From Streptantibioticus parmotrematis (GTDB taxonomy: Bacteria > Actinomycetota > Actinomycetes > Streptomycetales > Streptomycetaceae): DNA of 64,000 bases. Location: contig NZ_JAINVZ010000005.1 in assembly GCF_019890615.1 (NCBI RefSeq), positions 1 to 64,000 of the forward strand, in the 5' to 3' direction. The notes under the pieces are model-generated. The model saw only the letters and a list, made by a program, of their open reading frames with translations, was not told the origin of the DNA and did not search any database. Positions 24,805-39,145 of this stretch are shown piece after piece. The translations under genes and the position numbers were made by a program. The stretch's first letter is position 1; each line of letters opens with the position of its first letter.

Positions 24805-26244
24805 TCACCTCGCCCGGTAGTCGCTCATCGCCGCCCGGGCGCGCTCCGAGAAGAACGCGGGCCCGACCGCGTCGGAGTGCGCCAGCCCCTCGGGCGTCAG
24901 CCGCAGCACGCCCACGGACTCGCCCGCGCCGTCCAGCCAGCCCCTGACCCGCAGTTGCTCCAGGTCGCCCGCGAAGTCGTCCTCGGGACGGGTGCCGAAT
25001 CGTTCGCGGTACGAGGCGGCCGCCAGCCCCTCGGCCTGGAGCAGCGACTGCACGAGATGGCGGCGGCGCGACTCCCGCGCGTCCATCCACCAGCCGACCT
25101 CGGCCACGTCGAAGTCGGACGCGGGGCGTGACACGTAGTCGTCCACGATGCCCCTGATCTCCGTCATCGACACCGCGTAGTCGAACGAGTAGTGCAACCG
25201 CCGGGTGTAGGAACGCGAACCGCAGCCCAGGCCCACCATGCCATCGGTCTGACAGCAGTACTCGGTGCCCGCCGTGCGGCCCGCGCCCGGCACCGGTGCC
25301 ACGCCCGCCCGGCGGAACATCCGCATCGACACCTGCTCGTAGCCCGAGGCGAGCAGGTGGTCGCGGCCCGCGCGGTACAGCGCGAGACGTCGCCGGTCCC
25401 ACTCCGGCTCCGGCGCGTCCGCGCCCTCCCGGCGCCCGAGACCGGTCAACGGCCGCACGTAGAGCGGGTAGAGGTACAGCTCTTCCGGCTCCCAGGCGAG
25501 CGCCGCGTCGAGGGAGGTGCGCCAACTCGCCGCCGTCTGGCCGTCGATGCCGTAGATGAGGTCGATGTTGAGCACCGGGACCCCGGCGTCCCGCACCCGG
25601 CCGAGGGCGGCTTCGACGTCCGCCCTGCGCTGCGGGCGCACCGCCGCCCTGGCCTCGTGCGGCACGAAGCTCTGCACGCCCAGGCTCAGCCGGGTGGCGC
25701 CGCGCGCGGCGAGCACGGCGAGCCGGTCGGCGGTCGCGGTCGCCGGGGACGCCTCCACCGACAGCGGGACCGCGCTCAGGTCGGCGCCCATGCGGACCTC
25801 GGCGATGTCGCACAGCCGCTCCAGCTCCGCGGCGGTCAGGAACGTCGGCGTGCCGCCGCCGAAGGCCACCTGCGCGTAACGGGCGCCGGGGCCCAGCGCG
25901 GCGGCCACCCGCGTAGCCTGCCGCTCCAGCGCGTCGAGGTAGGCACCCGTCAGGCCGTCGGGGGCGCCGATGCGGGTGAACAGGTTGCAGAAACCGCAGC
26001 GCACCTCGCAGAACGGTATGTGTGCGTACAACGACAACGCGTCCTTCGGCTCGTCGGCCCACACCCGGTCCAGCCGGGGACGCGGATCCAGCGGCCGGTA
26101 GGCGGTCTTGTGCGGGTAGGCGTAGACGTAACTCTGGTACGGGGACTCGTGAGACGCCTTCGGCACCTGCGGTACATGCGGCGTCTGCGGCGTCGGCGGC
26201 TCACCGGGGTGCGCGGCCGGGGCGGGGTACGGGGCAGTGCTCAT
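24805..26244 (-). CDS. STM4012 family radical SAM protein (HemN-like)
   Basis: 479 aa, ATG 26244, overlapping the STM4013 stop by 4 bp (ATGA). A Pro-rich N-terminal 30 residues precede the HemN-like core: HIPFCEVRCGFCNLF with Cys79, Cys83 and Cys86, FGGGTPTFL, and RLSLGVQSF. The C-terminal region corresponds to the HemN C-terminal domain. HemN itself decarboxylates coproporphyrinogen III, but many relatives do not (HutW, methyltransferases, heme chaperone HemW). Placement inside the STM4011-4015 operon argues for a dedicated unknown role rather than heme synthesis. Confidence 0.92.
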   Translation of the reverse strand: MSTAPYPAPAAHPGEPPTPQTPHVPQVPKASHESPYQSYVYAYPHKTAYRPLDPRPRLDRVWADEPKDALSLYAHIPFCEVRCGFCNLFTRIGAPDGLTGAYLDALERQATRVAAALGPGARYAQVAFGGGTPTFLTAAELERLCDIAEVRMGADLSAVPLSVEASPATATADRLAVLAARGATRLSLGVQSFVPHEARAAVRPQRRADVEAALGRVRDAGVPVLNIDLIYGIDGQTAASWRTSLDAALAWEPEELYLYPLYVRPLTGLGRREGADAPEPEWDRRRLALYRAGRDHLLASGYEQVSMRMFRRAGVAPVPGAGRTAGTEYCCQTDGMVGLGCGSRSYTRRLHYSFDYAVSMTEIRGIVDDYVSRPASDFDVAEVGWWMDARESRRRHLVQSLLQAEGLAAASYRERFGTRPEDDFAGDLEQLRVRGWLDGAGESVGVLRLTPEGLAHSDAVGPAFFSERARAAMSDYRAR

Positions 26245-27146
26245 CGTCGGGCTCTCTCGTCGGAGTCCTGCCGCGCGGCCGCGGGCAGCGTGAAGTGGGC
26301 GTACGGCACCGTCCACACGGACTCGTGGCCGATCCGGTGACCGCTCCAGCCGTCGTCGCCGTAGGCGGTGCCGTGATCGGAGCAGACGATGGCGAAGCAG
26401 GGGCGGCGCTGTGCCATCGCCGCGAAGAGCCGCGGCACGTGACGGTCCACGTACTCCAGCGCGGCGGCGTGCGAGGCGCGGGTGTCGCCGTGCTCCTTCG
26501 TCGCGCCCGGCAGATGGTGCCAGTTGGGCTGGTGCAGCGCGGAGACGTTCACGAAGAGGAACAACGGCTGCTCGGGCGCCTGCCGGGCGTGTTCCTCGGT
26601 GATGCGTTCTGCGAGTGCCACCTGCGTCTCGAAGGACGTGGCAGAGGTGACGCCGGTCTGCGGGCTCCAGTGGCTCTCCTGGAACAGACCGGGCAGCACG
26701 GACCCCAGCGCGGCCGTCTTGCTGAAGAAGCCGACCCCGCCGACGCACACCGTCCGGTACCCGGCCTCGGCCAGCCCCGAGACCAGGTCGGGCGTGTCGT
26801 AGACGAAGGACGTCGTCGCGGTGGACTCACTGCCCGCGAACCGCGCCGCGAACAGCCGGGGATGAGGCCCCGGCGAGTCGGCGGGCGTGGGCAGGAACCC
26901 GGCGAAGATCGCCTGATGGGCCGCGTAGGTGAAGCTGCCCGGGCTGTGCCGGCGCTCCCAGCGACCGCCGGGCAGCCGGGCCGCCAGGTTCGGGGTGCGG
27001 CCGGCCGCGGCCAGCTCGGCGGCCACGTCGTACCGCAGGGTGTCGAGGGTGACGAACAGGATGTCGTGGCTGCCGACGATCCGGCGCATGTCGACGTCGG
27101 ACGCCTGCTCCTGCCGGGGCCACCCGGCAGGTGAGGGATCGTTCAC
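26241..27146 (-). CDS. STM4013/SEN3800 family hydrolase (alkaline-phosphatase fold)
   Basis: 301 aa from GTG 27146; both ends overlap neighbours by 4 bp. Metal-site motifs of the alkaline phosphatase/sulfatase superfamily are visible: ILFVTLDTLRYD near the N-terminus, CSDHGTAYGDD with Asp and His ligands, then GHRIGHESV. The usual sulfatase CxPSR formylglycine site is absent. The nucleophile position is probably the Thr in GSFTYAAHQAIFAG, so a phosphatase or phosphotransferase-like activity is more likely than a sulfatase. No signal peptide, so cytoplasmic. The substrate is unknown. Confidence 0.9.
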   Translation of the reverse strand: MNDPSPAGWPRQEQASDVDMRRIVGSHDILFVTLDTLRYDVAAELAAAGRTPNLAARLPGGRWERRHSPGSFTYAAHQAIFAGFLPTPADSPGPHPRLFAARFAGSESTATTSFVYDTPDLVSGLAEAGYRTVCVGGVGFFSKTAALGSVLPGLFQESHWSPQTGVTSATSFETQVALAERITEEHARQAPEQPLFLFVNVSALHQPNWHHLPGATKEHGDTRASHAAALEYVDRHVPRLFAAMAQRRPCFAIVCSDHGTAYGDDGWSGHRIGHESVWTVPYAHFTLPAAARQDSDERARR

Positions 27147-28399
27147 TTCGGTGTTCCTTCTGGTGTTCCTTTTGCTGGTCGCGGTCCGTCCGCTGTTTGT
27201 GTTCTCGGTCTGTCCGCCGTTCGCGGGCTGTCCCGCGCGCGCAGCACGGCGGCGGTGAACGCCGCGTACGTGTCCGCTCCTTCGGCGCCCGAACCGGGCA
27301 GGCCGGTCAGCCCCGGCAGCAGGTCGCCGAAGGCGTTGACCTCGCCGACCGCGTGCCCACGCAGGTTCGCCGACGGCAGGACGTCGACCGCGACGACCGG
27401 GCTGCCCGGGAAGAGCCGGGCCGTGCGCTCACAGGTCTCCAGCACGGCGGGCCACTCGGGCCCGCTCGCGTCCCGGAACGCCGACAGGTCGCCGCGGGCG
27501 CCGCCGAGGTGGAGGTTGGTGACGGGATTGCGGCTGGTGCGCAGCACCGCGTGGGTGGCACGCCCGGCGGTGACCACGACCCGCAGGTCGCAGGGCTTCC
27601 CGTGCGGCGACGCCTTCGGCAGCCACCGTTCCACGTGCAGCCGCTCACCGGCCAGCACGTCGAACAGCGCCCGCAACTGGGGCTCCTGCGTGTAGCGGCG
27701 CACCCGCAGCGAGTTGAACAGCGCCGGGCGGCCGTCGACTGCGGTGCCCAGAGCGGCGGACGTGGTGGCCCGCGCCCGGCCGCGTGGACCCAGCTCCACG
27801 GCGACCACACCGGAGGCGGACGAGGCGTGAGCGGGCTTGACGAACGCCCGGGGCATCCCCGCCGCGAGCAACCGCTCCCGCAGGTCGTCCCACCCGGTCA
27901 CCGGCTCGCCACCCTGATCGAGCGCCCGCGGCACGGGCACCGCGGCGTCCGCGAGCAGCGCGTGGGTGCGCCGCTTGTCGAACATCACCGCGATCTCGTC
28001 CGGGTCGGCCAGCAGGACGCACCCCGGCACGGCCGCCGCCGTACGGGCCAACTCCCGCAGGGCCGCGGTGAACCGCTCGTACCACGCCGTGCCGCCGCCG
28101 ACCCGCGTGGAATCCCAGCCGCCGCCCAGCGCGTCACCGCGCAGCAGCCGGTCGACCCGCTCGTCCTCGCCGGGCGAGTCGATCCGCAGCAGCGTCCCGG
28201 GCGCGGGTACCGCGCCGGGTGCGCCGCGCAGCACGTCGGCCCAGGCCAGCACGGCCGGCTCCGGCCCGCCCGCGGCCAGCACGGCGGTCCGGAAGAGGCC
28301 CACCCGGCGGCTGCCGGGATTGCCGACCACGGTGAAGCGCGCGGACCGCCGCGGGTCGGGGGCGAGGCGGCGCCCCGCGGGAACGATCGAGGTGGCCAA
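27143..28399 (-). CDS. STM4014 family protein, ATP-grasp-like
   Basis: 418 aa. The frame opens at TTG 28399, 3 bp after the STM4015 stop. TTG is the only plausible start before the conserved FTVVGNPGSRRVGLF, so the exact N-terminus is uncertain. The central and C-terminal parts look like an ATP-grasp ligase: RTHALLADAAVPVP, RAFVKPAHASSASGVVAVE (ATP-binding loop), and VVAVDVLPSANLRGHAVGEVNAFGD with the late acidic/Asn metal ligands. ATP-grasp enzymes join carboxylates to amines or thiols through acyl-phosphates. The tail is Arg/Pro-rich. Substrates unknown. Confidence 0.87.
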   Translation of the reverse strand: MATSIVPAGRRLAPDPRRSARFTVVGNPGSRRVGLFRTAVLAAGGPEPAVLAWADVLRGAPGAVPAPGTLLRIDSPGEDERVDRLLRGDALGGGWDSTRVGGGTAWYERFTAALRELARTAAAVPGCVLLADPDEIAVMFDKRRTHALLADAAVPVPRALDQGGEPVTGWDDLRERLLAAGMPRAFVKPAHASSASGVVAVELGPRGRARATTSAALGTAVDGRPALFNSLRVRRYTQEPQLRALFDVLAGERLHVERWLPKASPHGKPCDLRVVVTAGRATHAVLRTSRNPVTNLHLGGARGDLSAFRDASGPEWPAVLETCERTARLFPGSPVVAVDVLPSANLRGHAVGEVNAFGDLLPGLTGLPGSGAEGADTYAAFTAAVLRARDSPRTADRPRTQTADGPRPAKGTPEGTPK

Positions 28400-28402
28400 G
28401 GT

Positions 28403-29347
28403 CTACTCGTCCACCGCGACGTAGTACCAGGCCTGCCCGTCGTACTCGTCCGGCTTCTCCTGCTCGCTGAGGTCCACCGTGACACCGGCCGGCTCCAGGG
28501 CCTCACGTATGCGCGCGACCATGCCGTCCGACAGGAAGTGGTGGTGCAGGTCGAGTTCGGCCAGGTGGGTCAGCGACTGCCCGCCCAGGAGGGCTTCGGC
28601 ACCGGCGTCGGTGAGGGTGCCCATCGAGAGGCTGAGCGAGGTGAGTCCCGGCACCACCGCGGCCCTCGCGACCGCTTGCGCGATGGCGTCCTGCGACTCG
28701 CTGTCCTGGAGCCCGAGATGACGCAGCGACGGGAAACGGCCGGCCTCCAGCAGCGGCGCGATGTCCTCCACCGTGGCGTCGCCGCCGTAGTTCTCCACGC
28801 CGAGCCACAGCTCCAGCCGCTCCAGCGCGGGCAGTTCACTGGACGCTATGCCGCGCACCACGGCTGCGGACATGCCACCGGACTCCAGCCGCAGCGTGCG
28901 CAGGTTCGCATGCCGCACCGGGGTGAACTCGCGGTGGCCGCCGCGGGCGCCGAGCTCCTCCAGTCCGGGGAAGGCTTCGAGGACCGGTGCGAGGTCGGTC
29001 TGCTCGATCCAGGAGATCTCGTTCTCCTCGGAGACGATGTCCCCCAGGAAGAACGCCTTGAGCGAGGGGAGGCGGTCGGCCGACTCGACCAGCCGGGCCA
29101 CCTCCGCGGACGCGTCCTCGTCGTACATGTGGTCGCTCCACGGCCCGAATATGAGCGCGGTGACCCGGCTCGTGTCGACGGACTCCAAGAAGACCGGCCA
29201 GATGGCCTCGATGTCCTTGTCGGCCGACCAGTCGTGCCCCAGCCGCCAGGCGACCTCCCCGGCCGCGGGCAGCCCGTCCTTCCGGCCCTCCGCCGGGAAC
29301 TCGAAGACCTTCAGGCCGTGGAACTCGGTGAGGTGTTCTACACACAT
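28403..29347 (-). CDS. STM4015 family protein, leucine-rich repeat type
   Basis: 314 aa, ATG 29347 with AGGAG 8 nt upstream; first gene of the operon. The N-terminal 90 residues form a compact domain. From about residue 90 on there are leucine-rich repeats of the form LPSLKAFFLGDI, FPGLEELGARGG, LPALERLELWLG, FPSLRHLGLQD, VPGLTSLSLSMG and LTHLAELDLHHH, giving about seven turns. The C-terminus is a short WYYVAVDE segment. LRR proteins bind other proteins; here it may present a substrate to, or scaffold, the two radical SAM and ATP-grasp enzymes. That is inference. Confidence 0.9.
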   Translation of the reverse strand: MCVEHLTEFHGLKVFEFPAEGRKDGLPAAGEVAWRLGHDWSADKDIEAIWPVFLESVDTSRVTALIFGPWSDHMYDEDASAEVARLVESADRLPSLKAFFLGDIVSEENEISWIEQTDLAPVLEAFPGLEELGARGGHREFTPVRHANLRTLRLESGGMSAAVVRGIASSELPALERLELWLGVENYGGDATVEDIAPLLEAGRFPSLRHLGLQDSESQDAIAQAVARAAVVPGLTSLSLSMGTLTDAGAEALLGGQSLTHLAELDLHHHFLSDGMVARIREALEPAGVTVDLSEQEKPDEYDGQAWYYVAVDE

Positions 29348-29484
29348 CGGAATCGCTCCTCGCACGCCGCGGAATATGTGCCAAGTCCTATCAGGAGGCA
29401 CTGACAATCCCGTTGCCCGGAGGGGCGGATGGGGCGTGACGAGGGAGGGAACGCTGGGTCGACTGCCGCGGTCAGGCGCCGTGC

Positions 29485-29920: not shown

Positions 29921-30578
29921 TCAACAGTGTTCCGTCAGCAGCGTCCGTTCCGTCAGCGCGGGCAGGTGCGGACCCGCCGCCACCGCGCGGCGATTCCGCG
30001 ACGAGTCGAGCGACCGGTCCTCCCGGACGGTGGCGCACGCCGCGCGGATGCCCGGCAGCGATGTCAACGCGGCCTCCACCTTGCCGAGTTCGATGCGGAG
30101 GCCGCGCACCTTGACCTGGTCGTCGGCGCGCGAGAGGTATTCCAGCTGCCCGTCGTCGTTCCACCGCACCACGTCCCTGGTGCGGTACATCCGGCCACCG
30201 GCGGGACCGAACGGGTCGGCCACGAAGCGGTCGGCGGTCAGGGCGGGACGGCGCAGGCGGGAGAGGAGGGAACCGCTGAGGCCGTCGATGGCGACGTCGT
30301 GGTGGCGCACGTACCACCAGTGCAGTTCGGGACCGAGCCTGAGCAAGGCGTACGTGCGTCGGGGCGCGGTGATGGTGTCCACCGTCGCCATGTCGTCCGC
30401 CATGTACCGCTCGGCGGGGGCGACCGGGTCGGCCCGCGCTGAGGTCCACGCGGTGCACATGAGTGAGTGACCCGCGCACCACCCGCTGGTAGACGGCATC
30501 GTCCTGGCTCACGAACTCGGTGTTGATGCTTCCACAGGAATCACCCAGCTTTTCGACAACCCTTTCGAGGTTGTTCAT
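29921..30578 (-). pseudogene. Non-ribosomal peptide synthetase remnant (condensation + adenylation)
   Basis: Read right to left, the first part (about 30578-30440) has condensation-domain sequence in one frame ([18 protein letters not shown]). It continues in a second frame with [31 protein letters not shown] and the catalytic HHxxxDG motif (HHDVAIDG). The text then jumps straight to the end of an adenylation domain: [49 protein letters not shown] frameshift and an in-frame deletion of several hundred residues are therefore present, and the frame stops soon after. It is on the same strand as mbtH, consistent with a once intact mbtH-NRPS locus. Confidence 0.8.
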
Positions 30579-30949
30579 CGAGCGGCCCGCGGATCTCTAC
30601 GCATTCGCCGATGTTGCACTTCGGACTCTTCGGATCGATTGCCTGCCCGTCCCACACGCATTCCTGCGAAGCGGTGAGGGGGAGGAGGCGGTCCTCGGCT
30701 TCGTGCCTGGTGCTTCTGCCCTTTCAGGGGTGGCTTCCGGATATTCCATTTGGGCATGGCGAAGCCATCGGGGGCACTCGTCGGATGTTCCCGGGCAGCG
30801 TCGCTGCCGCCGGACAAAAGAACCTCGTCCGGCGCACATGATTTCGCGCACGGCTTTGCCCTGTGGAATGGGGATGACCAGATGATGAACCGGAACCGAG
30901 CGGTCGGGTCGGACGCGGTCCGCAGGAGCTGCTGCGGACCGTCCGGCCG
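30579..30949. other. Non-coding remnant DNA
   Basis: This stretch lies between the NRPS and transposase remnants. Frames are open by composition only. I recognise no protein family, RNA or repeat in it. Confidence 0.4.
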
Positions 30950-31154
30950 CGAGAGGGCCGGAAGCGCGGTGGGTGCGGTGGCCTGCGTGTTCAGCCAGTT
31001 GCCAGCCGTTTTTGCGGCCGACCGGGTCGAGCAGGGCGCGGACGTAGTCACGCATGCGGCGTCGCAGGTCGGCGCGGCCGAAACGGTGGCCGATACGCAG
31101 GAAGAGGTCGTTGAGTTCACGGTCCCAGGTCGCGTCGGCGAGGTCATCGATCAC
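30950..31154 (-). pseudogene. IS701-type transposase, N-terminal fragment
   Basis: From ATG 31154 the frame gives ATWDRELNDLFLRIGHRF, RRRMRDYVRALLDPVGRKNGWQLAEHAG, matching the N-terminus of IS701-type transposases. After about residue 60 the sequence degenerates; the expected PDG-QQLL segment appears in another frame after roughly 25 extra bases. The catalytic DDE domain is absent. A dead fragment. Confidence 0.65.
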
Positions 31155-31305
31155 ACGGGGAGGCTGCCCTCATCACCGCTCAGGCAGTTCCCGGTGCCAC
31201 TCGTTGGAGGGGCGGTCAGTCAAGACTGCCCCTGACACCCTATCAGCCAACTACACTCCCCGACGACGCCTCTGACCAGGCAAGATAGCGAAACGCTGCT
31301 GGAGT

Positions 31306-31333
31306 ACTAGGGCGTGTATCGGGTCGTGATCAA
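31306..31333 (+). repeat. Left terminal inverted repeat of the IS5-bounded element
   Basis: Pairs with 35300-35327 with mismatches at repeat positions 10, 15 and 16 only. It is 51 bp upstream of the truncated transposase start. Confidence 0.8.
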
Positions 31334-31383
31334 TATGGCGGTTTCTGACTCTCGGTGATTTGCGATCCTGTAGATCGTCTTGC

Positions 31384-31559
31384 ATGACGCGAGCGCAACT
31401 GAGAGATCGAGAGTGGGAGTTCATCGAGCCGTACCTGCCGATCGGCGAGTACGGCCCGTATCCGGTACGGCTGCGGCAGCAGTTCGAAGGCGTGGTCTGG
31501 AAGTTCCGCTCGGGAGCGCAGTGGCGGGAGATGCCCGCCGAGTTCGGCGCCTGGGACCG
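31384..31559 (+). pseudogene. IS5-family transposase, 5' fragment
   Basis: ATG 31384 opens a typical DUF4096/IS5 N-terminus: DREWEFIEPYLPIGEYG, GVVWKFRSGAQWREMP, AEFGAW. After AEFGAW (about 31555) the family sequence stops and the frame runs into DNA antisense to the AraC gene. The catalytic domain is missing. Confidence 0.8.
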
Positions 31560-31613
31560 TTCACAATTTGTAGAGGGCATCCGGTCGGCGCTGCGGACAC
31601 TGGTGGTCCTGGC

Positions 31614-32486
31614 TCAGCTGCCGCCCGCTGGCCGGGCAGTGGCGCGGAAAGCGGTGGGTGACTGTCCGGTGTGGACGATGAAGAAGGTGGAGAAGTTCGA
31701 CGGGTCGCGGAAACCAAGGCGGCGGGCGAGGCGGGCGACCGGCTGGTCGGTATGCGCGAGCAGCCGGCGGGCTTCGAGGACGAGCCGGCGGTTGATGGCC
31801 TGCTTCGGTGACTCCCCGGTGGCGGCCTGGGTGGCCCGGTTGAGCGTGCGGGCGGAGTAGCCAAGCCGCTGGGCGTAGTGCTCGACATCGTGGGCTGTGG
31901 CGAAGTCCCGCTCCAGGAGGTCCCGGAACCGCGCGTCGAGTCCGGTGGGATCGGGCCGCCTGGGGTCCGGGGCGTGCCGGGCCAGTTCCAGGATGAGCAG
32001 AGACAGCAGGTGGCGCAGTGTCTCGGTCTGCACGACCGTGGGCCGCCCGGAGCCGGCCGCCCGGGTGTATTCACGCCGGAGCGCGCGCCGGGTCGGCTCG
32101 AACGGACCGGTGGCTTCGACCGGGCCGCCGTGGTCGCCGGCGAGGCCGGCCGCGTGCGTGCCGGGGATCAGGAAGTCTGGCTGGAACAACACCAGGTCGC
32201 CGGTGGCCTGTTCGCCGAACACCTGGACCCGGCCGGGCCGCACCCACAGCATCGATCCCATGGCCAGGTGGTGTTCCTCGAAGTCGACGGTGTGCGTCGT
32301 GGAGCCGCTGGTTACCAGCACCAGGAGGTGGAAGGCGGGGCGCTGAGGCGAGCTGAGGTAGCCCGGAGGTGCCATCGCCCACAGTTGCGCGATGGTCATC
32401 ACCTCGATATCGAACGGTGTCGGCGCCTGGAACGGCACCCGGCGGATCGCCTGTCTTGTTTTCACTGGTCCAGGTCCCTTCTCCAC
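31614..32486 (-). CDS. AraC family transcriptional regulator
   Basis: 290 aa, start at 32486 (the codon is preceded by GGGACC-type sequence; an internal Met is possible). The N-terminal cupin-like sensing domain includes FHLLVLVTSGSTTHTVDF and WVRPGRVQVFG. The C-terminal double HTH includes VEHYAQRLGYSARTLNRATQAATGESP and VARLARRLGFRDPSNFSTFFIVHTGQSP. It is divergent from the alpha/beta hydrolase gene with only 60 bp between, so it probably controls that gene pair and itself. All three lie inside the IS5-bounded element as cargo. Confidence 0.88.
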   Translation of the reverse strand: MEKGPGPVKTRQAIRRVPFQAPTPFDIEVMTIAQLWAMAPPGYLSSPQRPAFHLLVLVTSGSTTHTVDFEEHHLAMGSMLWVRPGRVQVFGEQATGDLVLFQPDFLIPGTHAAGLAGDHGGPVEATGPFEPTRRALRREYTRAAGSGRPTVVQTETLRHLLSLLILELARHAPDPRRPDPTGLDARFRDLLERDFATAHDVEHYAQRLGYSARTLNRATQAATGESPKQAINRRLVLEARRLLAHTDQPVARLARRLGFRDPSNFSTFFIVHTGQSPTAFRATARPAGGS

Positions 32487-32546
32487 CAGCGCTGATCCCT
32501 AATCTGATCACTGTATTCAGTGATCGCACGAGAAGGGGCCACAGGT

Positions 32547-33350
32547 ATGACCGAGCTGCAACTGACTGATTCTCGCATCAAAACCGGAGCAGCGACGCTG
32601 CATGTCGAGCAGACAGGCGAGGGCACACCGGCGCTGGTGTTCCTGCACTACTGGGGCGGGTCGACCCGGACCTGGCACCCGGTGTTCGAACGCCTGGCCG
32701 GTCAGGGGCACTGCGTGGCCATCGACCACCGTGGCTGGGGCCGGTCGACCGCGCCCGCGACCGGTTACGCGACCGGCGATCTCGCCGATGACGCGCTGGC
32801 CGTGATCACCGAGATGGGTTTGACGGACTACGTGCTGGTCGGGCACAGCATGGGCGGCAAGGTCGCGCAACTGATCGCCTCCCGGCGCCCGGCCGGGCTG
32901 CACGGCGTGGTCCTGGTTGCCCCGGCACCAGCCAAGCCCGCATCCGTCCCCAGCGAGGTCCGAGCACAGATGGCCGCCGCCTATGACAGCCGTGAGTCCG
33001 TACTCGCCACCCTCGACGCCGTCCTCGCGCACGCGCCGCTCGGGGCGGAGATCCGCGAGCAGATCGTCCAGGACAGCCTCGCGGGTGCCGAACCGGCCAA
33101 GCACGAGTGGCCGGCGCGGACAATCCTCGAGGACGTCTCGGCCGACCTCGCCCGGATCGAGGCCCCGGTCCTTGTCGTGGCCGGCGAGCACGATCGGGTC
33201 GAGCCGGTCGACCTGCTGCGCAGCCACGTGCTCGCGACCATTCCCGGAGCGCAACTGGAGGTCATTCCCGGCGCTGGCCACCTGCTGCCGGTGGAGAAGC
33301 CCGATCAACTCGGTGATCAGATCGCGACGTTCCGGAAGCAGATCGGCTGA
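32547..33350 (+). CDS. Alpha/beta hydrolase (cargo gene)
   Basis: 267 aa, ATG 32547 with AAGGGG upstream; a GTG at 32520 in frame is less likely because it sits in the promoter. Classical fold: LVFLHYWGGSTRTW, IDHRGWGRS, nucleophile elbow GHSMGG (Ser in GHSMGGKVAQL), acid in VLVVAGEHDRVEP, His in PGAGHLLPVEKP. It resembles haloperoxidase-like and C-C hydrolase-like members; the substrate is unknown. The next gene starts 1 bp after its stop, so they are coupled. Divergent AraC suggests inducible expression. Confidence 0.87.
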   Translation: MTELQLTDSRIKTGAATLHVEQTGEGTPALVFLHYWGGSTRTWHPVFERLAGQGHCVAIDHRGWGRSTAPATGYATGDLADDALAVITEMGLTDYVLVGHSMGGKVAQLIASRRPAGLHGVVLVAPAPAKPASVPSEVRAQMAAAYDSRESVLATLDAVLAHAPLGAEIREQIVQDSLAGAEPAKHEWPARTILEDVSADLARIEAPVLVVAGEHDRVEPVDLLRSHVLATIPGAQLEVIPGAGHLLPVEKPDQLGDQIATFRKQIG

Positions 33351-33351
33351 C

Positions 33352-34185
33352 ATGGCACTGGTCAAGATCACCACGAGCGAGGCCGCGTTCGGCGGTCACG
33401 ACCCGGCGCGGATCGCTGCCGCGCTCGGTGGGCTGACCTATACCGCGGAGGGATTCCGGGACAGCGCCATCGCACCCGAACTGATCTGGGTGCTGTTCGA
33501 GCAGTTGCCCGCGACCGCGTTCCTCAAGGCGGCCGGCCTCCCGCAGAAGCCGCTCTACTACGTGGAGGTCAGCACACTGCGCGGTGCCATCACCGAGGAC
33601 GCGAAGCTGGACCTGGGCGCGCGGATCACCCGGGAACTCATGGCCGTCGAGGGCTGCGCACCGACCGACGAGAACACCCAGCGCATCTGGATCCGCTTCA
33701 TCGACATCGCCGACGATGACCTCGTCGTCGGCGGACAGGCCACGTCTCTGGCCACGCTGAGGGCGCTGATCGCCTCGGCAGGCCGAGGAAAGGAAACACC
33801 GGTGGATCACGCGATCATCACCGACCCGGCGACCTTCGCCGGCGCGTTCGACCAGGCACTCAACGCGGGCGACCTGGACCGGCTGCACAGCCTCTACGAC
33901 CCGGACGCGACCATGCGGACCTCCGATGGATCGGTGGTTCACGGGCACGAACAGGTCGGCCAGGAGCTGAGGCGACTCATCGCGGCCGACGCGCGGCTGG
34001 AGAACCGGACCCGGCACGTGTTCCGGCAGAAGGACGTGGCCCTGATCGTGGTCGACTACACGCTGCACATCACCACTCCCGACGGGCAGCGAGTCGACAC
34101 CCAGGGCACCGCCACCAACGTCCTTCGGCACACCTCAGGGCTCGGCTGGCGCATGATCATCGCCAACCCGCCGGGCATCGCCTGA
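33352..34185 (+). CDS. Tautomerase-like domain fused to an NTF2/SnoaL-like domain
   Basis: 277 aa, ATG 33352. Residues about 1-145 resemble the tautomerase superfamily (LYYVEVSTLRGAITEDAKLDLGARITRELM, RIWIRFIDIADDDLVVGG). Residues about 155-277 look like a SnoaL/DUF4440 NTF2-like fold (FDQALNAGDLDRLHSLYDPDATMRTSDGSVV, VDYTLHITTPDGQRVDTQGTA). The catalytic N-terminal Pro of tautomerases is absent: the chain begins Met-Ala-Leu-Val. So either a different chemistry or a binding role. The two domains may act on one small substrate together with the preceding hydrolase. The fusion itself is unusual. Confidence 0.75.
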   Translation: MALVKITTSEAAFGGHDPARIAAALGGLTYTAEGFRDSAIAPELIWVLFEQLPATAFLKAAGLPQKPLYYVEVSTLRGAITEDAKLDLGARITRELMAVEGCAPTDENTQRIWIRFIDIADDDLVVGGQATSLATLRALIASAGRGKETPVDHAIITDPATFAGAFDQALNAGDLDRLHSLYDPDATMRTSDGSVVHGHEQVGQELRRLIAADARLENRTRHVFRQKDVALIVVDYTLHITTPDGQRVDTQGTATNVLRHTSGLGWRMIIANPPGIA

Positions 34186-34350
34186 CTGAACGCACCCGGT
34201 CACCGCACCAGTACCAGCTGATCAGGCGGTTGACCAGCCGCCAACAATTCCTGATCCGAAGGGGGTGTGCAGATGACGATGTTCGTCCAGGGTGGCCACT
34301 CGGCTCCTGTTTGAGCTGCCCCGAGTTTCGTGGAGTCCGCGATCGTGTGA

Positions 34351-35234
34351 TCAAGCGGTCTGCGGGGCTTCCTCCAGTTGCGCCCAGTACGCCTGTTCGT
34401 ACTCGTTGGGCGGTACGTAGCCGAGGGCGGAGTGGAGTCGTTCGCTGTTGTACCACGCGACCTGTTGGAAGACGGCCCGCTCGACCACGTCGAAGTCTCG
34501 CCAGGGTCCCTGATGCTCGGTCAACTCTGCCTTGAACGTGCCGTTGAGGGCTTCCGCCGTCGCGTTGTCGTAACTGTCTGCGACGGACCCGACCGACGCG
34601 GAGGCGCCGACCTCGGCGGGACGCTCCGTGTATCGGATGGACACGTATTGGGCGAGTTCAACCGGTGGTCGCAACACCGGGCTGTTGTCGTGAGCGTAGC
34701 TGTTCCTCGAATACCTCGGTCGGTGTCCGCCAGCCGAGGACTTCGCGGGGCCGGTTGTCGATCGCCAGGGCGACGGCTTCGAGGTCCGCGGACGACCACC
34801 GGGAAAGGTCGGTGCCCTTCGGGAAGTACTGACGCAGCAGCCCGTTTGTGTTCTCGTTCGTCGGTCGTTGCCAGGGCGAGTGCGGATCGGCGAAGAACAC
34901 CTTCGTCCCGGTGTCGAGAGCGAACTGGGCGTGGCCGGAGAGTTCCTTCCAGCGGTCCCAGGTGAGGGTCTTGCGTAGCGACGGATCAGGCCGGCCAGAC
35001 GAGCGCATCGCCGGCCGCAGCGCCCGGTCAGCACGCCACTGCCGCCGAAGTCCTACGGGCGCATCGCCGGTCTTCCTGCTCCAGCCCTCCGGAGCAATCT
35101 TGAACACCTCCGAAATCAAGGTGGTGCGACGATCGATTGAATTCGCCTTGAGACCCGCGGTCGCTGTGATGGACCAGGTCGGCGTCCTTCTTGATCTTTT
35201 CTATCACTGTGCAGCGGAGACGTAACAGCGATTT
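34351..35234 (-). pseudogene. IS3-family transposase C-terminal part, interrupted
   Basis: On the minus strand, 35234-35148 ends in DADLVHHSDRGSQ, the DDE-domain motif of IS3 integrases. The sequence resumes at 34650 with YVSIRYTERPAEVGA, SVADSYDNATAEALNGTFK, FQQVAWYNSERLHSALGYVPP and stops at 34351. The gap is filled by the IS30 remnant. The N-terminal half and orfA are missing. Confidence 0.8.
34651..35147 (-). mobile_element. IS30-family remnant, 497 bp, with intact ends and target duplication
   Basis: The ends are 28-bp imperfect inverted repeats (GGCGAGTTCAACCGGTGG... at 34651-34678; partner 35120-35147). TTG is duplicated directly outside (34648-34650 and 35148-35150), exactly splitting the Gln codon of the IS3 frame. 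Inside, the minus strand encodes only the C-terminal DDE part of an IS30 transposase (LTWDRWKELSGHAQFAL, DPHSPWQRPTNENTNG, LRQYFPKGTDLS). The N-terminal half was deleted, leaving a MITE-like derivative. Confidence 0.85.
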
Positions 35235-35303
35235 TCGCGGGCCGGCCTCCACCTTCGCGGCGCGATGATCTGGATCAAGGACCTCACCAGAGCTGTCGCT
35301 TGA
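35228..35303 (+). pseudogene. IS5-family transposase, 3' fragment
   Basis: The plus strand reads RAGLHLRGAMIWIKDL-TRAVA-stop, the usual C-terminal end of IS5-type transposases. The stop at 35301-35303 lies inside the right inverted repeat. This is the missing end of the gene that begins at 31384. Confidence 0.65.
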
Positions 35304-35327
35304 TCACGACCAAATACGCGCCCTAGT
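35300..35327 (-). repeat. Right terminal inverted repeat of the IS5-bounded element
   Basis: Reverse complement of the left end at 31306-31333 with three mismatches. Its outer CTAG supplies the TAG stop codon of mbtH. Confidence 0.8.
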
Positions 35328-35544
35328 CGGTCTGCCGGGCCCGCATGGCGGCGACGAGACTGGCCGGGCGCATGTCGGTCCAGTTGGCCTCGACGAAGTC
35401 GAGACACTCCTGCCGCGAACCCTCGGGTCGCGCCACTTCCCACCCCGCCGGCACCTCGGAGGTGGCGGGCCAGAGCGAGTACTGACGCTCTTCGTTGACC
35501 ACAACGACGAATCGAGCAGAATCATCGTCAAAAGGATTGCCCAC
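35323..35544 (-). CDS. mbtH: MbtH-like NRPS accessory protein
   Basis: 73 aa from GTG 35544 with GGGA upstream. All family landmarks are there: NPFDDDSARFVVVVNEERQYSLWP, VPAGWEVA, CLDFVEANWTDMRPASL. MbtH proteins bind adenylation domains of NRPSs and help them fold and activate amino acids. The gene is intact, but its stop codon lies within the terminal repeat of the IS5-bounded element, so the last few residues may have been changed by the insertion. The NRPS it served is probably the remnant at 29921-30578, on the same strand beyond the insertion. It may still serve other NRPSs in trans. Confidence 0.92.
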   Translation of the reverse strand: MGNPFDDDSARFVVVVNEERQYSLWPATSEVPAGWEVARPEGSRQECLDFVEANWTDMRPASLVAAMRARQTD

Positions 35545-36101
35545 GGCTTCCCTGTCTCTTCTCGTCCACGGGCCGGTTGGTGTCCAACGAGAGGCCGGGA
35601 CGGTTGTGCGCTCCCTGACCATGCGCTCCGGCGCGCTCGATATTCCGTCCGGTATCGATCGAGCGTGAGTACGCTACACCACCAAATCTTCACACCGGCG
35701 CGATTCGCGAATCCTACGCCCGGGCCCACCCTCTCCATGCGTGAACGGCGGAATTGAGCCCGCACGTCGGGGGTCCGTGGAGTCGGTCGATCGGTCCTTT
35801 CTGTCGAGTGTCGGTGGCGACCAGGGCGGTTGTTTCACAGGTTTCTCGCGGTTGTGCTTTTGGCAATCGCCAGCCCCGTCAAGAGTGGTGAAAACCGGCC
35901 ACCGCACGCCCGATATGTACGTCTATGATCCCGAGTGGGGCGTAGTGCCGGGCGCTCTGACAAGCTGGGGGCGTATGGAGGCCTGGAGGCGCACGTACTT
36001 GTTGGCATCCGCTGTTTGACGCCCCCTTCGCGCCCGCTGCCATCGGCGAGGCCGCCCGATAATCGATCGCCGCAGGCCCGGTGTGCTGGGAGCATGCCGC
36101 C
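35545..36101. other. Intergenic region upstream of mbtH
   Basis: No gene supported in this 557-bp gap; open frames lack ribosome sites and family similarity. It should contain the mbtH promoter (minus) and that of the methyltransferase gene (plus). Base composition is less GC-rich than average around 35640-35720 and 35860-35940. Confidence 0.4.
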
Positions 36102-36863
36102 ATGGGTGACACGTTCGAGGACTTGGTGGCGGAGGCGGAGGCCGCCTCCGTCGAGGGCTGGGACTTCTCCTGGCTGGATGGGCGGGCTACTGAGGAGCGT
36201 CCGTCGTGGGGCTATCAGCGCCTCATGGGAGAGCGCATGGCCGACGCATCGGCTGCCCTCGACATCCAGACCGGCGGCGGAGAGGTCCTGGCCGCCGTGC
36301 CGAGGCCGGCGCCCCTGACGGTGGCCACGGAATCCTGGCCGCCGAACGTCGCCAAGGCGACCCGCTTGCTGCACCCGCTGGGCGTCGCGGTGGTCGCGGA
36401 CGCCGACGAGCCCCCGCTGCCCTTCGCGGACGAGGCCTTCGACCTGGTGGTGAGCCGGCACCCGGTGACGGTGTGGTGGGACGAGATCGCCAGGGTCCTG
36501 CGTCCGGGCGGTACGTATCTGTCCCAGCAGGTCGGCCCCGCGAGCGTGTTCGAGGTCGTCGAGTACTTCCTCGGGCCGCAATCGCCCGCGGTCCGCAGGG
36601 GCCGCCATCCCGACGACGCCCGCGCGGGCGCGGAGTCGGCCGGGCTTGAGGTGGTCGACCTGCGCCACGAGCGGTTGCGCACCGAGTTCTTCGACATCGG
36701 CGCGGTCGTCTACTTCCTGCGCAAGGTCATCTGGATGGTGCCCGGATTCACGGTCGACCTTTACCGGGACCGACTCCGGCAACTGCACGAACGCATCGGC
36801 GCGGAGGGCCCGTTCGTCGCCACCACTACGCGCTTCCTCATCGAGGCGCGTAAGCCGAGCTGA
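36102..36863 (+). CDS. SAM-dependent methyltransferase domain protein
   Basis: 253 aa, ATG 36102. Class I methyltransferase core: ALDIQTGGGEVLAAV (motif I), LTVATESWPPNVAKA, DEPPLPFADEAFDLVVSRHPV, RVLRPGGTYLSQQVG. The C-terminal part has IWMVPGFTVDLYRDRL. Close homologues are generic actinobacterial methyltransferases of unknown target, some rRNA-modification-like. No operon partner. Confidence 0.8.
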   Translation: MGDTFEDLVAEAEAASVEGWDFSWLDGRATEERPSWGYQRLMGERMADASAALDIQTGGGEVLAAVPRPAPLTVATESWPPNVAKATRLLHPLGVAVVADADEPPLPFADEAFDLVVSRHPVTVWWDEIARVLRPGGTYLSQQVGPASVFEVVEYFLGPQSPAVRRGRHPDDARAGAESAGLEVVDLRHERLRTEFFDIGAVVYFLRKVIWMVPGFTVDLYRDRLRQLHERIGAEGPFVATTTRFLIEARKPS

Positions 36864-37170
36864 GCGGAGAGCGTGGGGGAGGGGCGTCGTCGGCAGGGGG
36901 GCGTCGTGGGGAGGGGCGTCGTCGGGAGAGGGCGAAGGGGAGTGCGGGAGTCGGAAGCCGGAAGTCGGAAGCCGGAGGCCGGGAGTCGGAGGCCGGGAGT
37001 CGGGAGCCCGTGCGGCCGGAATCACTTCTTGTGGGCCACGACCCGACGCGTTGACAATGCGCATGCCAACTCCCGGGCAATCCCCGGGAGTCCACACCGC
37101 GCCGGACCACAGACCACGAACCACGGACAGGTCAGGGGTTCCGGGCGGACATGCGGAGAGGACCCCCCAC
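36864..37170. other. Intergenic region with G-rich repeats
   Basis: No gene. 36885-36935 has three loose copies of an AGGGGCGTCGTCGG-like unit, followed by the 7-bp array described separately. The 3' part, less GC-rich around 37040-37090, should hold the promoter of the protease gene. Confidence 0.5.
36946..37008. repeat. Nine tandem copies of a 7-bp unit (GGRRGYC)
   Basis: GGGAGTC, GGAAGCC, GGAAGTC, GGAAGCC, GGAGGCC, GGGAGTC, GGAGGCC, GGGAGTC and GGGAGCC follow each other without a gap for 63 bp. The strand is purine-rich with a GG/GGG run in every unit. Confidence 0.85.
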
Positions 37171-38139
37171 ATGAACAAGCCTCTCGTCGCCGCTCTCGCC
37201 ACGCTGGCCCTGGTGGGAGCGAGCATCTCCACCGCTGCGGCGGTGCAGGCCGACCCGGCACACTCCGACCCGGCACACTCCCCGGGTTCCCCGACTCGTA
37301 CCGTCTCCGTCCATCGCGCCCCCGCCGGCGCGGCCCGCGCCGACACCGCCCGCACGGGAACCACTCGCACGGGAACCACTCTCACCGGCACCGCCCCCAG
37401 GGCGACGACCGACTTCTCCGGCATCGTCGCGCTGGACGACTGCTCCGGATCGCTCATCCGTGTGCCCGCCTCGTCGGTCAACGACCCCGCGCTGGTGCTG
37501 ACGAACGGCCACTGCCTGGAGACCGGCATGCCGACGGCCGGTCAGGTGATCGTGAACCAGGCCTCCAGCCGCACGTTCACCCTCCTTAAGTCCAACGCGG
37601 CCAAGGCCGGCACCTTGCGCGCGACCAAGGTCGACTACGCGACGATGACCGACACCGACATCACGATCTACCAACTCAACGCCACCTACGCCCAGATCGA
37701 GCAGCGCTACGGTGTCAAGCCGCTGACGCTCTCGCCGGACCACCCGGCGGCCGGGACCTCCATCGCCGTCGTCTCGGGGTACTGGAAGACCGTGTACGCG
37801 TGCGGTATCGACGGGTTCGCCTACCAACTGCACGAGGCCGACTGGGTCTGGAAGGACTCGGTCCGTTACACCTCCGCCTGCCACACCATCGGCGGCACGT
37901 CGGGTTCGCCGGTCGAGGACGTGGCGACCGGGCAGGTGGTCGCCGTCAACAACACGCTCAACGAAGACGGTCAGCGCTGTTCGCTGGACAACCCCTGCGA
38001 GGTCGACCAGAACGGCCAGGTGACCGTGCACGAGGGCATCGGGTACGCGGAGGAGACCTACGGCATCGTGCCGTGCGTCGCCCAGGGCAACACCATCGAC
38101 CTGAGCCTGCCGGGCTGTACGCTCCCCAAGCCGTCCTGA
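37171..38139 (+). CDS. Secreted trypsin-like serine protease
   Basis: 322 aa, ATG 37171. The signal peptide ends around AAA-VQA (residues 23-27). A low-complexity Thr/Arg/Ala/Pro region (about 30-75) with repeats such as DPAHSDPAHS and TRTGTT follows; it is likely a propeptide or linker. The catalytic domain has LTNGHC (His), TDTDITIYQL (Asp) and the Ser in IGGTSGSPV. Cysteine pairs match a chymotrypsin-fold S1 enzyme. Target proteins unknown. It stands alone. Confidence 0.85.
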   Translation: MNKPLVAALATLALVGASISTAAAVQADPAHSDPAHSPGSPTRTVSVHRAPAGAARADTARTGTTRTGTTLTGTAPRATTDFSGIVALDDCSGSLIRVPASSVNDPALVLTNGHCLETGMPTAGQVIVNQASSRTFTLLKSNAAKAGTLRATKVDYATMTDTDITIYQLNATYAQIEQRYGVKPLTLSPDHPAAGTSIAVVSGYWKTVYACGIDGFAYQLHEADWVWKDSVRYTSACHTIGGTSGSPVEDVATGQVVAVNNTLNEDGQRCSLDNPCEVDQNGQVTVHEGIGYAEETYGIVPCVAQGNTIDLSLPGCTLPKPS

Positions 38140-38366
38140 GTCGTGGCCGCCGCCGAGTCGCCCTGAGCGGTCACGCGGTGCCGTCCTGTGTCGTCTTGAG
38201 CAGTTCGCCGCCGCGCTGTTCCGAGCGGTGGTCGCCGCCTCCACCCCAGGGTGGAGAAGCGCCCGGGAGGGGTGGAGGCGGAAGGTGGAGAGGGGCCGCC
38301 CGGATCAACCCGGCGATCAACCCGTCGGCTGAGGACGCGGCGGCCCGACCGGAGCAGTCTGGTGCC

Positions 38367-38885
38367 GTGAACACCACCGACTACCTCATCAACGGCATCC
38401 TCGTGCTCCTCGTCGTCCGGCAGATCCGGGCCCGGCGCCTGGACATGACGAGCCTCGTACTGCCGGTCGTCCTGGTCGGCGGCGCCGCCGCGTACTACCT
38501 GCGTTCCGTGCCCACCGCGGGCAACGACCTCACGCTAGAGCTGACGTTGGGCGGTTCCGGCGCGCTGCTCGGCGTCCTGTGCGGCCTCACCACCCGGCTC
38601 TGGCGCGGCGAGGACGGGGTCTACTCGAAAGCGGGCGTGATCGCCGCCGTGTTGTGGGTGCTGGGCATGGCCACCCGGATGGGCTTCGCCTTCGCCTCCG
38701 ACCACGGTGCCGCCGGCCGCATAGCCGACTTCAGCCGGAACCATCAGATCACCTCGTCCCAGGCGTGGGTGGCGGCGTTCGTCCTGATGGCGCTCGCGGA
38801 GGTGGTGACCCGCCTGGTGGTCATCCGCTACCGCGCCCACCGGCTCGACTCCACCGCGAACCCGGCTGCCGCGGTCGCCGCGTGA
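38367..38885 (+). CDS. CcdC/DUF1453-like integral membrane protein
   Basis: 172 aa from GTG 38367. About five hydrophobic helices: LINGILVLLVV, MTSLVLPVVLVGGAAAYYL, LTLGGSGALLGVLCGL, AGVIAAVLWVLGMATRM and AWVAAFVLMALAEVV. An acidic/aromatic loop follows the third helix (RLWRGEDGVYSKAG). The order RQIRARRLDM after the first helix is typical of DUF1453 proteins. Function unknown. The frame of the downstream kinase opens with GTG overlapping its stop, so the three genes 38367-41154 probably form one operon. Confidence 0.72.
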   Translation: MNTTDYLINGILVLLVVRQIRARRLDMTSLVLPVVLVGGAAAYYLRSVPTAGNDLTLELTLGGSGALLGVLCGLTTRLWRGEDGVYSKAGVIAAVLWVLGMATRMGFAFASDHGAAGRIADFSRNHQITSSQAWVAAFVLMALAEVVTRLVVIRYRAHRLDSTANPAAAVAA

Positions 38886-39145
38886 ACACCGCACGACGTC
38901 GGCCCGACAGGCCTTCCCGGGCCGCGACCGAGGCTCCCGACCGGACCCCGACCCCGACCCCGGCACCGGCACCGGTCCCGGACCTCGGTGTGCACGGTGC
39001 CTCCACGCCGCAGGACACCCCCGTCACACCGGGCGTCCCTGTCGCGCAAGGCGCCTCCACCGGACAGGGTGTCTCCACCGGACAGGGCGCCTCCACCGCG
39101 CAACGTGCCTTTGCCCTGCAAGGTGTCTCTTCTATGCTGCGTCCC

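Follow-up and report, generated by a model that had tools for sequence, protein, structure and literature searches.

IS5-type ends around a regulator, hydrolase and SnoaL gene block in Streptantibioticus parmotrematis

We analysed a 64,000-nucleotide stretch of the Streptantibioticus parmotrematis genome (contig NZ_JAINVZ010000005.1, positions 1 to 64,000; hereafter the window), in which a 4.0-kb unit at 31306-35327 is bounded by the two ends of an insertion sequence (IS) of the IS5 family. We lean towards reading this unit as a decayed passenger-carrying IS5-family (IS427-like) insertion, whose ends and cargo of three genes would have arrived together as one unit; the copy in the window now looks dead. 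The evidence comes from the ends themselves, an empty insertion site in a genome of the same genus, and IS5 relatives that carry other passenger genes.

Ends and insertion site of the IS5-type element

An earlier note on this DNA had described 28-bp inverted repeats with 25 matches bounding 4.0 kb, and a repeat search with a random control bore this out. The arms (31306-31333 and 35300-35327) pair at 25/28 positions (89% complementary) and head the 25 pairs shown of the 125 inverted pairs found between 28 and 39 kb, whereas the best of 200,000 arm pairs drawn at random from the window reached 20 matches. The IS boundaries proper, GGGCG...CGCCC, run from 31310 to 35323 and lie within CTAG tetramers at 31307-31310 (left end; the TA of the presumed target duplication is 31308-31309) and 35323-35326 (right end). 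CTAG occurs 11 times in the window versus 162 expected from base composition alone, making it about 15-fold rarer.

The left piece (31310-31566, + strand; about 260 bp) corresponds to positions 1-261 of copies of about 1105 bp, and comprises the left inverted repeat and the transposase N-terminus, which is encoded at 31384-31566 (DUF4096, E 9.6e-15). The right piece (35241-35323, + strand; about 85 bp) corresponds to positions ~1019-1105, and comprises the right inverted repeat and the transposase C-terminus (GLHLRGAMIWIKDLTRAVA-stop) in a frame that differs from that of the left piece. The transposase of full-length relatives (about 1105 bp) is likewise spread over two frames; in one of them (L020), NF033580 (IS5 family transposase) scored above its cut-off in both frames, and DUF4096 and DDE_Tnp_1 were also found. 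It is correct, as the note had it, that one transposase type starts inside the left end and finishes inside the right end, and that no full transposase remains: the window copy lacks about 750 bp of the middle, the gene is truncated on both sides, and only IS fragments persist at either end.

The right-hand CTAG contains, on its complement, the stop codon of an mbtH-like gene (35323-35622, − strand; MbtH, E 6e-25), so that the insertion lies at the stop codon and leaves the reading frame intact. G001, the sole other genome of this genus in the search, is collinear with window positions 30258-30977 and 35323-38962, with about 50 bp between the two blocks. Window 30978-35322 is absent from G001, including the cargo, and the break is one uninterrupted CTAG containing the mbtH stop codon. 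This is an empty site of the kind that the earlier note had proposed to look for in related strains, and the two ends, for which that note had considered separate insertions, flank this one CTAG. Both ends most likely mark a single insertion site, above all because of the empty site in G001. A comparison with 17 references agrees weakly: the nearest reference of the left piece was L020 (85.5%), while L020 and L017 tied at 91.8% for the right piece, whose shortness makes this a weak test.

We also searched the organism's own genome (7.4 Mb, 83 contigs) for the full IS copies with the same ends that the note had suggested, and DNA search gave no other copy of either end; the only further match to the left 267 bp was 27 bp long and is not an IS end. 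As to dependence on a helper, the element lacks a transposase of its own and no helper copy was found by this search, which was made at the DNA level and could miss a strongly diverged helper.

The cargo and the sequences around it

Three genes lie between the IS5 pieces: an AraC-family regulator of 290 amino acids (31614-32486, − strand; HTH_18, E 5e-23), an alpha/beta hydrolase of 267 amino acids (32547-33350, + strand; Abhydrolase_1, E 9e-27), and a 277-amino-acid open reading frame (ORF; 33352-34185, + strand) with a weakly tautomerase-like N-terminal part and a C-terminal SnoaL/DUF4440 domain (DUF4440, E 2e-11; SnoaL_2, E 3e-11). Regulator and hydrolase agree with the regulator-hydrolase-tautomerase module named earlier, whereas the tautomerase is weakly founded. 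The N-terminal part of this ORF had no match in Pfam or NCBIfam and reached nine PDB tautomerase sequences at E values of 0.055-0.13 only. Known tautomerases have an N-terminal proline; here alanine follows the start methionine. A structure model of the fused protein had a mean predicted local distance difference test score (pLDDT) of 48.1, too poor for a structure search, and comparison of the SnoaL fusion with viral contigs confirmed no relative.

The search for the same cargo elsewhere gave one close copy, and not between these IS ends. G358, from another genus of the Streptomycetaceae, contains window 31613-34254 at 96% identity (also 96% amino acid identity for the AraC regulator). In this copy 32613-33336, most of the hydrolase gene, is deleted (at L150:11175-11180), and the AraC gene and the SnoaL fusion are still open. 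The 19-kb stretch fetched from G358 had no further match to the window at E ≤ 1e-4, and so no IS5, IS3 or IS30 piece; one flank of the cargo, with a LysR gene, was found in several relatives. Other close copies were absent from 394 family genomes (E ≤ 1e-20), where the next match by E-value was 68% identical, and, besides G358, from 392 genomes of its genus (E ≤ 1e-60) and 394 class genomes (E ≤ 1e-50); the three samples overlap. The ratio of nonsynonymous to synonymous substitution rates (dN/dS) against G358 was 0.275 for the AraC gene (29 changes) and 0.475 for the fusion's N-terminal part (26 changes); with one synonymous and three replacement changes, the SnoaL part is uninformative. From its distribution, the cargo probably spreads horizontally, and does so along more than a single route or loses its ends on the way. 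The block itself showed no recognisable mobile ends.

Among the best 80 of 263 loci in a hydrolase scan of genome contigs (49-57% identity, mostly Proteobacteria), a SnoaL relative was present in the fetched flanks of 11 and an AraC relative in those of two. The organism's own genome has a second AraC/hydrolase pair (G000:C6:10813-12592; L006, L008) with about 67-69% DNA identity over the matched parts, and G001 also has such a pair.

The earlier note had described cargo between the ends; the three foreign genes are there, but the interior also holds IS3 and IS30 debris. The 3′ part of an IS3-family remnant (34311-34650, − strand; rve_3) matches at 90% a plasmid copy that is continuous where this one is interrupted, and neighbouring plasmid copies are annotated IS3. 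It is interrupted by an IS30-family element (34651-35147, − strand) made of two adjacent blocks. In the plasmid record L152, 1 kb separates these blocks within an annotated IS30, so that about 1 kb of the middle is gone from the window element; TTG flanks the IS30 element at 34648-34650 and 35148-35150. The IS3 remnant then continues at 35148-35202 (− strand; aligned to 35198, the last few bases by eye) and is truncated at its inner side. A Streptomyces anthocyanicus plasmid stretch (L153) has a longer IS30 at the identical position in the same IS3, a nest that the window and L153 share either by common descent or by target preference. Several plasmid records, L152 and L153 among them, have IS30 beside or within IS3. 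Three filler stretches separate these parts: 46 bp between the left IS5 piece and the cargo (31567-31612), about 55 bp between cargo and IS3 remnant (34255-34310), and about 38 bp between IS3 and the right IS5 piece (35203-35240). None of them had a convincing match among plasmids and fetched loci.

Outside the left end lies an IS701-family remnant, the 5′ end of an element (30971-31306, − strand), which abuts the CTAG holding the IS5 piece. It matches plasmid elements annotated IS701 at 92% and 88% DNA identity, and two plasmid IS701 copies share its end, GGAGTA followed directly by CTAG; its broken ORF had no Pfam match. The likely order of events is that IS701 entered the CTAG first and the IS5 unit entered that CTAG second. 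Four other left ends (L011, L023, L031 and L032) have GCAGTA just before CTAG, which resembles the IS701 end beside the window copy; insertion beside IS701 ends may be common for this IS5.

Farther left, about 18 kb is absent at junction 30257/30258 relative to G001, and the adjoining sequence matches annotated nonribosomal peptide synthetase (NRPS) genes, which makes the NRPS next to mbtH a probable remnant. A stretch of about 4.3 kb (25174-29474) is unmatched at that place in G001 and includes an ORF (27143-28399) that reads as ATP-grasp-like, beside radical-SAM-like ORFs (labels from reading only).

Passenger-carrying and split IS5 relatives

Matches to the left piece at E ≤ 0.001 were present in 207 of the 394 sampled family genomes, many of them weak. 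Around IS5 left ends we fetched 20 longer stretches, a biased choice that took mostly cases whose right end was not whole at normal spacing, or second copies, with a few ordinary ones. Three of the 20 contained one unit with the order IS5, MMPL transporter, histidine kinase, response regulator and a second IS5 right end of about 120 bp: L183:5002-10656 (G079) and L186:5001-10656 (G101), each about 5.66 kb, and L189:4798-10264 (G183), about 5.47 kb. The three are 96-98% identical over long shared blocks and have different flanks. IS5 is full length in L183 and L186 and internally deleted in L189; across the genomes, the left IS5 copies of MMPL units in G183, G063 and G037 are internally deleted. 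For the G101 insertion there is an empty counterpart in G086, in which similarity to the left flank extends as far as the IS and the right flank resumes within 58 bp; the empty site reads CTGA, not CTAG. For the G079 element, searching with the left flank for an empty counterpart gave short matches only.

The MMPL cargo was present in 24 of 179 family genomes at E ≤ 1e-100, with at least 92% identity in 22. In 12 of these 22 genomes the cargo has an IS5 piece (at least 78 bp) within 1.5 kb, and in the other 10 it does not (the 68% match of G020 and the 27-bp match of G180 were left out of the count). Of ten sequences given to a reading of the ends, all seven with a readable inner right end have it degenerate, and CTAG is retained at the outer right end in 7/7, with one mismatch in G101. 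A Streptomyces xanthophaeus plasmid (L243; NZ_CP116356.1, 190733-201012) has the MMPL/kinase/regulator block at 94% identity, and its gene table, which is incomplete, lists no transposase within 3 kb of it. The literature matches listed, in which subscription papers are thinly covered, contained no conspicuous report of an IS5 with MMPL cargo in Streptomyces.

Other relatives are split by foreign DNA. In L182 the IS5 is in three pieces, which join without loss, around IS3, IS21-like and group II intron proteins (from ORF reading only). In L181:6664-10184 it is split between positions 955 and 956 by an insert of about 2.4 kb, perhaps a group II intron, in which one ORF reads as reverse transcriptase.

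Relation to known systems and origin of the element

The window element shares with the IS427-like IS5 group a two-frame IS5-type transposase (in the relative L020), imperfect terminal repeats and TA at both ends, and the IS427-like assignment is drawn from these features, not from a tree. According to the text of PMC3281130, as far as available, elements of the IS427 group have two overlapping ORFs, make duplications that are mostly of 2 bp (4 bp in one case) and measure 832-865 bp as tabulated, whereas the full-length relatives here measure about 1105 bp. Mobile insertion cassettes (MICs) are passenger genes between IS ends without a transposase. The window element matches this description, having passenger genes between IS repeats and no transposase gene of that IS, but differs in its transposase fragments at both ends and the foreign IS debris inside. 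The available portion of PMC3129680 names MICs among objects some of which a related transposase can activate, and the visible reference list of PMC2266710 contains a title naming MIC231. Transporter ISs are described in that portion of PMC3129680 as having passenger genes unrelated to transposition between IS ends. L183 and L186 fit, with a full-length IS5 kept and passenger genes, and the MMPL element seems to be a clear-cut new member of this kind; the window copy differs in lacking an intact transposase gene. As in a composite transposon, unrelated genes are flanked by two IS ends, but no complete IS copy stands on either side, where just ~260 and ~85 bp of the outer parts persist. We take the window element for a decayed representative of a known kind, an IS carrying passengers.

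On the favoured reading, the gene block would have arrived with IS5 ends as a compound or passenger-carrying IS, the left IS5 copy, cargo and right IS5 end being moved together by a transposase acting on the outermost ends. Later, IS3 would have entered downstream of the cargo, with IS30 entering or coming with that IS3, and deletions would have trimmed the IS5 copy or copies and the IS3 from the inside. The element now lacks its own transposase, and movement would require a related one from elsewhere.

The best-surviving alternative, which we consider quite possible though less probable, is that an ordinary IS5 at the mbtH stop codon was inactivated, gained cargo and IS3/IS30 debris later by illegitimate recombination or insertion, lost its ~750-bp middle, and was never a mobile unit. 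Insertions of this sort are known in this IS5 family from L182 and L181. Several observations weigh on its side or against a passenger-carrying origin. Remnants of IS3, IS30 and IS701 crowd the site, the inner junctions carry filler of no recognised origin, and the cargo occurs without IS5 ends in G358, with no second instance of it between IS5 ends in the 394, 392 and 394 sampled genomes. The left piece may predate the cargo: it has replacements at 5 of 48 conserved positions, exceeding 20 of 22 references, which, together with the 96% identity of the cargo to G358, suggests that the IS5 was possibly dead before the cargo came. The presumed target duplication is no longer than TA, and relatives almost invariably have CTAG at their ends, so that it does not in itself link the two ends; a TA duplication as proof of one insertion was dropped for that reason.

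The pieces of L182 and L181 join without loss, however, whereas here about 750 bp of the IS is gone and filler lies at the junctions; because of this loss and these ragged junctions, we favour a decayed compound element over simple insertions into an IS. Entry of a cargo that has no recognised mobile ends would moreover require an unexplained recombination. The G358 copy was considered as a refutation of the passenger reading and rejected, since in 10 of 22 genomes the MMPL cargo likewise stands with no IS5 piece counted nearer than 1.5 kb. The earlier description as a passenger-carrying IS derivative therefore keeps the single insertion site and the passengers in the same IS family on its side, the latter giving indirect support through the MMPL units, and has the missing second copy between these ends and the G358 copy against it.

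Two independent IS5 insertions around a cargo that arrived otherwise, with the look of one element only apparent, are improbable. In favour of this reading, both IS5 pieces have lost their inner ends, which hides a shared origin from direct view, and the nearest-reference comparison, with its tie for the short right piece, is weak. Everything between the ends is nevertheless missing in G001, where the right flank is the ancestral site, and two insertions would have to use one CTAG site or lie in tandem. That the unit is a currently mobilisable, MIC-like cassette, with functional ends and a helper IS5 transposase moving all 4.0 kb, is very unlikely despite well-preserved terminal repeats (25/28) and IS5 relatives common in the family, given a single copy, no helper by DNA search of its genome and no second copy in the family, G358-genus and class samples.

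Beyond this decayed passenger-carrying insertion, we tentatively propose, as a possibility rather than an expectation, that in Streptomycetaceae this IS5 lineage has repeatedly served as a gene carrier. It would have picked up neighbouring genes and a second right end, with a decayed inner right end locking the cargo in, at least twice with unrelated cargo (clear for the MMPL/two-component block, decayed for the AraC/hydrolase/SnoaL block). If this is true, small IS elements, usually seen as gene disruptors, would ferry regulatory and metabolic genes between Streptomycetaceae, and the rare CTAG tetramer would be the point of entry for such carriers, which in this case coincides with a stop codon and leaves the gene unbroken. 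The window copy would then be a view of such a carrier after decay, and its MMPL relatives the better preserved form.

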